Below are positions 27,081-57,408 of a stretch of DNA of 64,000 bases, in pieces. The DNA is from Myxococcota bacterium. GTDB lineage: Bacteria; Myxococcota_A; Bradymonadia; UBA7976; UBA1532. Position numbers and translations under genes: made by a program. Numbering within the stretch: position 1 is the stretch's first letter; every line of letters starts with the position of its first letter. The DNA is taken from NCBI GenBank assembly GCA_963169045.1, contig CAUJDF010000070.1:186001-250000 (forward strand), written 5' to 3'. A model generated the notes under the pieces. That model made no database searches, had not been told where the DNA came from, and was given only the letters and a program-made list of their open reading frames with translations.

Positions 27081-28424
27081 ATGGCGGCGCCCTACGAACG
27101 TTGGCTGATGGCGGAGGGCTTCCTCGGCGAGGTCTTCGTCACGCTCACCGGCGGCGCCTTCCTCACCGGCCTCGCGCTGGCGCTCGGCGCCGGCCCGATG
27201 TCGCTGGCGCTGCTGGCGGCGCTGCCGTTCCTGGCGCAGATCGGCCAGCTCGGCGCGCCCATCCTCGAGCAGCGCCTGCGCTCGCGGCGCGCCTTCGTCG
27301 TCCCGGCGATGGCCGGCGCCCGCGCGCTGTGGCTCGTGCCGGCGGGCCTCGCCGCGACCGGCTTCCGCGACGGGCCGGCCCTCGGCGCTTCGATGGCGGC
27401 CATGTTCACCATCGGCCTGCTCGGCATGGTGGCGACCAACGGCTTCACCTCGTGGATGGCCGACCTCTCGCCGCCGGCGGACCGCGCCCGCCTCTTCGGC
27501 CGGCGCGCCTGGGCCGTTGCCTTCGCGATGCTGCTGACGGCGCCCGCCGGCGCGCTGCTGCTCGACCACTTCAAGCGGCAGGGCGACACGCGCCTCGCGC
27601 TCGGCGTCCTCGGCCTCGTCGCCGTCGCGGCCGGCATCGGCGCCGCCCGGGCCCTCGCGCGCGTGCCCGACGTCGCGCCGCCCCCGCCGACCGGCGAGTC
27701 GCTGCTGGGGACGACGCGGCGCCTCCTGGATCAGAAGCGGTTCCGCAATGTCTTCGGGTTCTTCCTGGCGTGGAACGTCGCGATCGGCCTGCCGTCGCCG
27801 TTCTGGACGCTGTACATGCTCGAGCAGCTCCACATGAGCTTCTTCCTCGTCACGGTGCACACCATGCTGGTGCTCACCGTGCGCCTGACGTGCAACGCCG
27901 CGTGGAGCCGGATCATCGAGCGCGTGGGCAGCCGGCGCGTCCTCATCTTCTGCGGCCTCGCCATCGCCGGCATCCCGCTCATCTGGGCGCTGCCGCGGCC
28001 CGACCGCCTCTGGCCCATCTTCGTCGAGGCCACCTGGTCGGGCATCGTCTGGACCGGCTTCAACCAAGCCGCGTTCATCCAGCCGATGGCGACGCTGGAT
28101 CCCGCGGACCGCAGCCGCGGCCTCGCGCTGCTCAACGTCGGCACCGGCGCCGTGCTCTTCGCCGCGGCGCTCGTCGGCGGCGCCGTCCTGCGCGCGCTCG
28201 GCCCCGAGGCGCGCTCGAGCTTCTTCGTCCTCTTCATCGCCTCGGCCGCGCTGCGCGCCGGCACCGCGCTCATGGCGCTGCGCCTGACCGAGCCCGGCAT
28301 GAGCCTGCGCGGCTTCTTCGTGGCGTTCATGGGGCACGGCGTGCTGCGGCGCGCGTCGGGCGGGCGCGTGTGGATCCCCGTCGAGGTGAGCACCGAGAAG
28401 CGGCAGGGCGAGCACGACAACTGA
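27081..28424 (+). CDS. MFS transporter
   Basis: 447 residues, about twelve hydrophobic segments, cytoplasmic membrane. The opening YERWLMAEGFLGEVFVTLTG and the loop motif DLSPPADRARLFGRRAW fit a major facilitator of unknown substrate. The ATG at 27081 is immediately preceded by GGGGGAG, too close for normal ribosome binding; an in-frame ATG at 27108 exists, but the N-terminal YERW motif is typical of relatives, so the longer start is kept. No regulator or pathway gene nearby indicates a substrate. Confidence 0.88.
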   Translation: MAAPYERWLMAEGFLGEVFVTLTGGAFLTGLALALGAGPMSLALLAALPFLAQIGQLGAPILEQRLRSRRAFVVPAMAGARALWLVPAGLAATGFRDGPALGASMAAMFTIGLLGMVATNGFTSWMADLSPPADRARLFGRRAWAVAFAMLLTAPAGALLLDHFKRQGDTRLALGVLGLVAVAAGIGAARALARVPDVAPPPPTGESLLGTTRRLLDQKRFRNVFGFFLAWNVAIGLPSPFWTLYMLEQLHMSFFLVTVHTMLVLTVRLTCNAAWSRIIERVGSRRVLIFCGLAIAGIPLIWALPRPDRLWPIFVEATWSGIVWTGFNQAAFIQPMATLDPADRSRGLALLNVGTGAVLFAAALVGGAVLRALGPEARSSFFVLFIASAALRAGTALMALRLTEPGMSLRGFFVAFMGHGVLRRASGGRVWIPVEVSTEKRQGEHDN

Positions 28425-28484
28425 CGTGAGTTGCGCTGGAGACGAACAACCACGGTGCATTCCGGCGTAGGCATGGACCTGGAC

Positions 28485-28547
28485 GTGGACGTGTACGTGG
28501 ACGTGAACCTGGACGGTGACGCGCCACGCGCCACGCGCCACGCGCAC
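28485..28547. repeat. Left inverted-repeat arm flanking the four-helix-bundle gene
   Basis: 63 bp starting GTGGACGTGTACGTGGACGT and ending CGCCACGCGCAC. Its reverse complement matches the arm at 28949-29016 along nearly the whole length, with small indels inside the GTGGAC-rich half. The rest of 28425-28606 holds no gene. Confidence 0.9.
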
Positions 28548-28609
28548 GAATTCTGCGACAAGCCTCCGCGCTGTCCGAGGGATCCATCAGGACGAAGCGG
28601 GAGGCGATG

Positions 28610-28942
28610 ATGCTCGCGCACAAGAAGCTGGACGTATACCGTTGTGCCCTCGAGTTCCTGGCCCTCGCCATCCGCGTCGAAGTGCCCCGCGGATACGGTG
28701 CTCTCGGCGATCAGTTGCGGCGGGCTGCCCTGTCGATCCCCCTGAACATCGCGGAGGCAGTCGGCAAGCCGGGCGACGACGACCGCGCGCGCTTCTTCGC
28801 CATTGCCCGCGGCTCGGCAATGGAGTGCAGCGCCATTGTCGACAGCTGCGCCCTCCTTGGCGCCATGAGCGCGCACGACGCGACGAAGGCGGAAGAGCTG
28901 CTCGAACGCATCGTCGCCATGCTGACCAGGATGTGCCGCTGA
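28610..28942 (+). CDS. Four-helix-bundle (S23/IVP-like) protein
   Basis: 110 residues. Of two consecutive ATGs (28607, 28610), the second is better spaced from GGGAGG (28599-28604). It matches the four-helix-bundle family of 23S rRNA intervening-sequence proteins: HKKLDVYRCALEF in helix 1, GALGDQLRRAALSIPLNIAE in helix 2, then ARFFAIARGSAMECSAIVD and a final helix. Known homologues (S23; the related Avd of diversity-generating retroelements) form basic oligomers that bind nucleic acid. Here the gene is not in an rRNA operon and no reverse transcriptase is present. It is enclosed by long inverted repeats. Confidence 0.9.
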   Translation: MLAHKKLDVYRCALEFLALAIRVEVPRGYGALGDQLRRAALSIPLNIAEAVGKPGDDDRARFFAIARGSAMECSAIVDSCALLGAMSAHDATKAEELLERIVAMLTRMCR

Positions 28943-28948
28943 CCGGCC

Positions 28949-29016
28949 GTGCGCGTGGCGCGTGGCGCGTCACCGAGCACGGCCACGTTCACGGCCACGT
29001 CCACCTCCACGTCCAC
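28949..29016. repeat. Right inverted-repeat arm
   Basis: 68 bp starting GTGCGCGTGGCGCGTGGCGC just 6 nt after the stop of the four-helix-bundle gene and ending CACGTCCAC. In RNA it could pair with the left arm and place the whole coding region in one large loop. Confidence 0.9.
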
Positions 29017-29143
29017 GACCGGCGTCGCAGTCGCGTCCCGCTCAGGCGGTCTTGTCAGACGCACTGAGTGAGGATCGCGCGGCGTGGATGGAGAGCCGCC
29101 TGGCGGCGGTGCCCGGCGGGAACCGCGCCGAACCGTCGTAGGA

Positions 29144-29309
29144 CCGTTTCGCCGCCCCGAAACGGCGTGACGAGATCGCGAACGACCATGTCCCGGCCCG
29201 GGAAACGCGAGGTCGATGCGTCGAAACGCCGCCTCCCGGCCCGGCAAACGGCGTTCACCGACGTCGAAGGCGCGCATCCCGGCCCGGGAGACGCGAGGGC
29301 GACGCGTCG
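29144..29309. repeat. Intergenic hairpin plus 33-bp direct repeats
   Basis: This 440-bp gap (28943-29383) has no gene before 29384. CCGTTTCG (29144-29151) and CGAAACGG (29158-29165) form an 8-bp hairpin. Then a 33-bp unit beginning TCCCGGCCCGGGAAACGCGA occurs at 29191-29223 and again at 29277-29309 (30 of 33 identical), with a 20-bp partial copy at 29234-29253. Each full unit contains the palindrome CCCGGCCCGGG-like core. Role unknown. Confidence 0.8.
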
Positions 29310-57208: not shown

Positions 57209-57270
57209 GACGACTCCCGTGGGCCATGCCGCGCGCCCGACGGCACGCGCGCGTGCGCCGGGATCGCGCT

Positions 57271-57363
57271 GCGCCCCCGTCCCTCCGTTGGCATGACCCA
57301 AATCAGGTTCGACGGGTATCTCTCAGCCCGGCGCGGTCGCGTGCCGGGCACCCCGGGGGGCGC
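57271..57363 (-). ncRNA. TPP riboswitch (THI box)
   Basis: On the minus strand the element begins at 57363 with an 8-bp P1 stem (GCGCCCCC paired to GGGGGCGC at 57278-57271). Within it are GGGGTGCC (57354-57347), a P3-like CCCGGC/GCCGGG hairpin, CTGAGA (57326-57321), ACCCG (57317-57313), AACCTGAT (57309-57302), ATGCCA (57294-57289) and ACGGAGGGA (57288-57280). These are the conserved elements of the TPP aptamer in the right order; the E. coli thiM aptamer has the same core. It precedes the outer-membrane gene by about 60 nt, where a GC-rich hairpin (about 57241-57260) and the ribosome site form the likely expression platform. Confidence 0.97.
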
Positions 57364-57408
57364 GCGGCGAGACTGCGCCCGAGGCGGGCGGCTGTCAACC
57401 GGCCGGAT

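Follow-up and report, generated by a model that had tools for sequence, protein, structure and literature searches.

The window examined here is the whole 64,000-nt stretch of contig CAUJDF010000070.1 (positions 186,001 to 250,000) from the genome of a Myxococcota bacterium (GCA_963169045.1), and our subject is a unit of 637 bp within it (~28431-29067), in which a small gene of the S23 family is enclosed by inverted arms. The open reading frame (ORF) was intact, with an alternative start one codon downstream, and was flanked by an MFS transporter gene, the nearest upstream neighbour, which ends at 28424, and by an ORF without a Pfam match. Profile searches revealed a match to PF05635 of 68.9 bits (E = 5.3e-19, cut-off 33.8), the only Pfam domain in the ORF, and to TIGR02436 of 67 bits against a cut-off of 24. 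AlphaFold predicted a helical bundle (pLDDT 97.2), and the top relative in the Protein Data Bank by sequence and fold was 2GSC (Xcc0516), with a TM score of 0.91. The four-helix-bundle fold and a profile score above the curated cut-off place the protein in the S23/23S_rRNA_IVP family, in agreement with the first-pass annotation, which had called an S23-like four-helix-bundle gene from the letters alone. When compared with a paralogue on contig C80, the window ORF (contig C70) gave a dN/dS of 0.28. Small proteins of the PF05635 family are common in bacteria and have no known function. The absence of ribosomal RNA (rRNA) nearby, also claimed earlier, was found to hold across the 64 kb: the window contained no rRNA, and an Rfam scan gave a TPP riboswitch, 28 kb off, as its sole match.

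We then characterised the arms (Table 1). Global alignment revealed pairing nearly end to end, with a best ungapped pair of 65 nt that was 85% complementary (28474-28538 with 28951-29015) and a perfect pair of 23 nt (28526-28548 with 28948-28970). The inverted-arm score of the locus was 40, compared to a maximum of 15.0 among 30 first-order shuffles. The imperfect inverted arms of 63 and 68 bp reported in the first pass were thus real and far above shuffles, while their coordinates had been set slightly short; the right arm had been placed 6 nt past the S23 stop codon, and we measured 5-6 nt. The predicted RNA fold of the stretch was stable (z = -4.75), with none of 20 shuffles reaching equal stability.

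Table 1. Coordinates of features in the window (position 1 is its first letter).
Feature	Position	Strand	Remarks
S23 / 23S_rRNA_IVP four-helix-bundle protein gene	28607-28942	+	111 aa; profile, fold and dN/dS evidence
Left arm	28474-28548	+	~GTGGAC hexamers in the outer array (28474-28516), CACGCGC heptamers in the inner one (28517-28548)
Right arm	28948-29020	+	Inner heptamers 28948-28970, outer hexamers 28971-29020; reverse complement of left arm
Left unique end (TTGCGCTGGAGACGAAC...GGCGTAGGC)	28431-28473	+	Common to copies on C33 and C101
Right unique end (GGCGTCGCAGTCGCG...GTCAGACGCACTGA)	29021-29067	+	Common to C33, C8, C73 and C60; reverse complement is the C36 left end
Left GTGAG of the candidate 5-bp target-site duplication	28426-28430		By eye; just past the MFS stop region
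Right GTGAG of the candidate 5-bp target-site duplication	29068-29072		By eye
TPP riboswitch aptamer	57262-57365	-	65.8 bits

When the same genome was searched with the DNA of the unit, pieces of arm and ORF were found on nine other contigs (C73, C60, C33, C8, C101, C99, C36, C74 and C61), together with the diverged paralogue on C80 and a weak match on C42. The window held the one full copy. Internal deletions were present in the copies on C33, C101, C36, C99, C61 and C74, those on C8 and C74 were truncated, and four (C73, C60, C101 and C36) were broken at a contig end lying inside or adjoining the copy. The C33 copy kept both arms and had an ORF core that was 97% identical; both arms were complete in C33 and C99 only, the other deleted copies being truncated or at contig ends; the right arm was kept, whole or partly, in C33, C8, C73, C60, C99, C74 and C61. 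The C80 paralogue, with ORF DNA ~75% identical, had very different arms (GCGATC-like). Because the dispersed copies hold ORF remnants, the arms are not ordinary repeats unlinked to this gene family, and the scattered copies of the cassette, one full and the others mostly shortened by internal deletion or truncation, show the pattern expected of mobile DNA. An uninterrupted target copy for the C33 flank was not found in the genome. By eye, the outer ends of C99 recur in C61 with their order exchanged, and the left end of C36 is of the right type; in the C36, C99 and C61 copies the interior seems to be flipped relative to the arms, as though by recombination between them.

These findings were extended to S23 genes of many phyla. 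A broad alignment search gave 586 relatives, of which the best 80 were kept as named loci; 73 had flanks long enough for the arm test, 253 other ORFs at the same loci served as controls, and some loci belong to more than one of the sets that follow. An inverted-arm score of at least 14 was reached at 54/73 S23 loci versus 12/253 control ORFs, and a score of at least 20 at 29/73 versus 4/253. Direct repeats were found at 9/73 and 15/253, respectively, a smaller contrast than that of the inverted arms. Within the phylum of the window, 20/26 S23 loci (4 of 30 were too short) scored at least 20 compared to 0/161 high-GC control ORFs, and in a second set from this phylum 10/18 (2 of 20 too short) scored at least 14. 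Arms were also present at 51/58 loci from 15 genomes plus Xanthomonadaceae (1 of 59 too short) and at 18 of 20 further Xanthomonadaceae loci, and the arm-bearing loci carried 14 taxon labels according to their record titles. Arms accompany most homologues, so their conservation beside the gene, which the first pass had set as a test, was observed. Furthermore, left and right arms matched within one locus in 54/73 cases versus 25/1460 cross-locus pairs, and the true partner was the best of 73 for 47 loci. Chance or low complexity as the source of the arms was ruled out by the shuffles, the control ORFs and the cross-locus arms.

The repeat unit varied by locus. Its period, where found, was 7 nt in 37/52, 8 nt in 14/52 and 9 nt in 1/52 loci, with none in 21/73, and a 6-nt period occurred in many Myxococcota. 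The upstream arm was G-rich on the sense strand in 51/54 loci (2 were opposite and 1 equal) and in all 27 Xanthomonadaceae loci with a score of at least 14. Collectively, these comparisons indicate that S23 genes across phyla have, as a rule, matched inverted arms, whose unit differs in sequence from one locus to the next. None of the 18 relatives scanned among the 80 named loci lay near rRNA, and a search for phage carriage gave no match. We also observed a 7-nt tandem period, far above other periods, in the flanks of 28/253 control ORFs of the named loci (L092-L171); solo heptamer arrays look common genome-wide.

Cyanobacterial plasmids allowed eight filled sites to be compared with relatives lacking the S23 gene. 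In six of the eight, the S23 cassette with its arms was an insertion between ordinary genes: in Trichormus/Scytonema relative to the empty site of Tolypothrix/Nostoc linckia, on two Nostoc ATCC 53789 plasmids relative to C057, in Picosynechococcus 7003 (between cas10 and cmr3) relative to 7002, at nrdB/nrdA of N. edaphicum relative to Calothrix, and at the TraM site of C052 and N. edaphicum relative to C057. Two junctions that were not clean, Anabaena 90/Dolichospermum, where the relative has another insert, and Aulosira/Tolypothrix, were not counted. The insertions fell in narrow intergenic gaps, several at or adjoining stop codons, and 5-bp direct repeats were present at two sites (GTAAT, identified by script, and TTCTA, recognised by eye). 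At the Trichormus site, Nostoc C052 had a cassette remnant with a large internal deletion. The dN/dS of the cyanobacterial S23 ORF was 0.10-0.14 in three pairs, two further pairs being too similar to tell, which indicates purifying selection. Relatives of the cassette are evidently missing from otherwise matching plasmid sites, and together the comparisons indicate that the S23 cassette is mobile. The suggestion of a free-standing mobile element made in the first pass gained support from the copies in its own genome, the related empty sites, the 5-bp repeats at two of them and the multi-copy occurrence across phyla. In three cases (L255, L266 and L268) S23 cassettes lay within plasmid CRISPR operons, twice in type I-D (cas6/cas4) and once in type III-B (cas10/cmr3).

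To gain insight into the relation between arm unit and genome, we turned to Xanthomonadaceae, in which the arrays flanking S23 genes consist of GGGACTC, GGGATTC, GGGACCC or GGGAATC, among others (GGGAYTC-type). Rehm 2015 (PMC4692102) gives 186 and 183 dispersed heptamers per Xanthomonas genome, and 70 convergent pairs in Xcc and 75 in Xac. Among 50 family genomes, two-unit heptamer hits summed to at least 20 in 17/30 with S23 versus 2/20 without (Fisher p 0.001). Genomes with GGGACTC S23 arms had 10, 36, 96, 107, 195 and 243 dispersed hits of GGGACTCx2, compared to a median of 0, and up to 152, in other S23 genomes (p 2e-4); for GGGATTC, carriers had 3-225 hits and other S23 genomes 0-159 (p 1.5e-3). 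Where a second S23 copy was expected to bear the abundant unit, it did so in 3/5 (GGGACTC in G321, GGGATTC in G430 and G318), the expected GGGACTC arms being absent from G352 and G364, and the second copy of G334 had GGGATTC arms, yet the genome had only 4 hits. At gene-less sites (L282, L283, L284, L286, L288 and L289) unrelated cores were enclosed by convergent arrays with, in most cases, 2-4 units on each side. The S23 protein and element of G406 served as queries against nine such loci and one positive control, and an S23 remnant was found in the control only. These data suggest that the abundant heptamer of a genome can be predicted, though not in every case, from the unit of its S23 arms. 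They also indicate that this unit is shared by gene-less arrays of Xanthomonadaceae, which include convergent pairs and reach as many as 243 two-unit hits in one genome.

Based on these findings, we consider it likely that the window unit represents one copy of a small S23 mobile element that is free-standing and has gene-less satellites, similar to REPIN-RAYT (REP-associated tyrosine transposase) but lacking a known transposase, with the S23 protein as the putative mobiliser. In the proposed mechanism, a pentamer-type four-helix S23 protein would bind the arms, as a DNA hairpin or as RNA, and bring both ends together, so that its own cassette is mobilised; it might also mobilise gene-less satellites in trans, as has been proposed for RAYT on REPINs. 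Cutting and joining of strands would be carried out by the S23 protein itself or by a host enzyme. Arm units would diverge by slippage and stay complementary, and we propose that complementarity is kept because recognition depends on the pairing of the arms. That the S23 protein drives mobility, recognises arms and acts in trans is what we infer from the coupling of units, the constant association of the gene with arms, and the kinship with Avd described below.

Several observations weigh against this explanation. An empty site for the window locus was not found: MFS homologues were present in 4/13 family genomes, its own included, and none was close enough. The GTGAG repeats on both sides of the window element are a candidate target-site duplication recognised by eye, and the C33 copy does not have them; the other 4/6 plasmid insertions likewise showed no clear target duplication. 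By set, 19/73, 8/18 and 7/58 S23 genes had no arms. In one genome (G048) with at least 16 S23 matches, three testable copies (L181, L182 and L191) had no arms within 350 nt and two were too short to score. The G-polarity rule fails in the window's own phylum (14 to 8). Dispersed heptamers occur without a matching S23 gene in G352 and G364, and G300 had 98 GGGACTCx2 hits while no PF05635 match was found, so that it either holds satellites without the gene or its gene was lost or missed. The coupling of units could in part reflect shared ancestry of related genomes. Profile searches revealed no nuclease domain in the S23 protein, and Avd, to which it is related in fold, has an accessory role.

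An alternative is that the cassette is mobile but moved by another enzyme, an unlinked transposase or reverse transcriptase (RT), the S23 protein being an RNA chaperone or a passenger. The fold of the window protein matched Avd of diversity-generating retroelements (DGRs; 4DWL and 8UB7, Foldseek probability 1.00), two RVT_1 hits lay on other contigs of the window's genome, and the truncated copies on C8 and C74 resemble incomplete copying. However, RVT_1 was found in only 3/14 genomes carrying S23 elements, disfavouring RT in trans as a requirement, and the sole constant feature was the S23 gene, the arms varying by locus. We regard this alternative as unlikely. Short tandem arrays stand beside other genes too, as the 7-nt period at control ORFs illustrates, and the arms might be taken for ordinary microsatellites or GC-rich low-complexity DNA beside a host gene. 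The within-locus and cross-locus counts of matched arms given above, and the absence of high-GC controls at a score of 20, have already refuted this statistically, leaving it next to no probability.

A further possibility is that the arms act in RNA, as a long transcript hairpin bound by the S23 protein, with autoregulation or RNase III processing as in intervening sequences (IVSs) of rRNA and with mobility occasional and incidental. This would fit the stable predicted fold of the window stretch, the position of elements within operons whose gaps measure a few tens of nucleotides, and the consistently G-rich upstream arm; in Coxiella, terminal inverted repeats form a 28-bp stem in the IVS RNA, which is cleaved by RNase III (PMC4990558). 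It leaves unexplained both the dispersed gene-less pairs with the S23 arm unit and the insertion comparisons, and as a full account we find it improbable. A hairpin RNA that binds its own S23 protein, as the first-pass annotation had proposed, is possible from the folding model; RNA and DNA roles of the arms are compatible, and an RNA role leaves room for mobility.

The mobile S23 element favoured here was compared with known systems. The plan that the first pass had likened to IVSs of 23S rRNA was recognisable at the window, where terminal inverted repeats enclose an S23 ORF. The IVS of Coxiella burnetii (PMC4990558) is likewise a unit of ~0.4-0.6 kb in which an S23 ORF stands between terminal inverted repeats able to form one stem; it is a proposed selfish element, and its mobility has been suggested to involve the ORF as a component. 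In contrast, the window element lies between protein genes, outside rRNA, and arms of its type are tandem arrays with a locus-specific unit and gene-less satellites; identity with rRNA IVSs by location was rejected, given the rRNA results for the window and the scanned relatives.

In REPIN/RAYT systems, one autonomous-type gene per unit type is accompanied by many short gene-less inverted-repeat satellites sharing its ends. The S23 system likewise combines a gene with gene-less satellites sharing its ends. It differs from the REPIN/RAYT system in that S23 is a four-helix bundle and not an HUH/Y1 transposase, and in that its ends are 6-8-nt tandem arrays and those of REPINs a single palindrome. 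The S23 element misses one defining feature each of IVSs (location) and REPIN-RAYT (the HUH transposase). In comparison with miniature inverted-repeat transposable elements, which have inverted-repeat ends, multiple copies and no intact gene, the copies in the window's genome had deletions, but both arms were complete in C33 and C99 only.

Heptamers of other bacteria provided further parallels. The GGGAATC/GGGGAYT heptamers of Xanthomonas and Nostoc (PMC4692102) share the heptamer class and the convergent pairs with Xanthomonadaceae S23 arms, but the accessible text of that paper treats them as G-quadruplex repeats, does not report a general link to mobile elements and makes no mention of S23, four helix or 23S. 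TAACTGA of Beggiatoaceae (PMC4679880) is the complement of TCAGTTA, a typical S23 arm unit; in the accessible text, however, those heptamers are direct repeats upstream of genes, and no mention of S23 or four-helix proteins was found there. Avd (4DWL), which has the fold of the S23 protein, is a nucleic-acid partner of a retroelement, but its sequence identity to the window protein was only 14-18%, and no RT, TR or VR was seen beside the window gene.

No paper linking S23 genes to inverted tandem-repeat arms, or reporting free-standing S23 elements with arms, was found in the open-access literature, subscription papers and preprints lying largely outside the search; the S23 element family was earlier only suspected, from cases inside rRNA genes. 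We advance with some reserve the broader idea that S23 four-helix-bundle pentamers may be responsible for the mobility of a class of elements that is domain-wide and has gone unrecognised, that they may recognise paired 6-8-nt arrays free to drift while complementary, that they may have made the dispersed heptamer inverted repeats of Xanthomonas, Nostoc and other bacteria in trans, and that rRNA IVSs could be the special case of landing in an rRNA gene. The way in which rRNA IVSs move and the origin of the abundant Xanthomonas and cyanobacterial heptamers are long-standing puzzles beside PF05635, and both would become directly testable if one S23 element family lay behind them. Transposition via slippage-prone repeat arrays without a known transposase would, if true, be new to mobile-DNA biology.

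Just 3′ of the window element, at 29160-29309, we observed imperfect repeats around CCCGGCCCGG, with three 32-nt copies at a spacing of ~43 nt.
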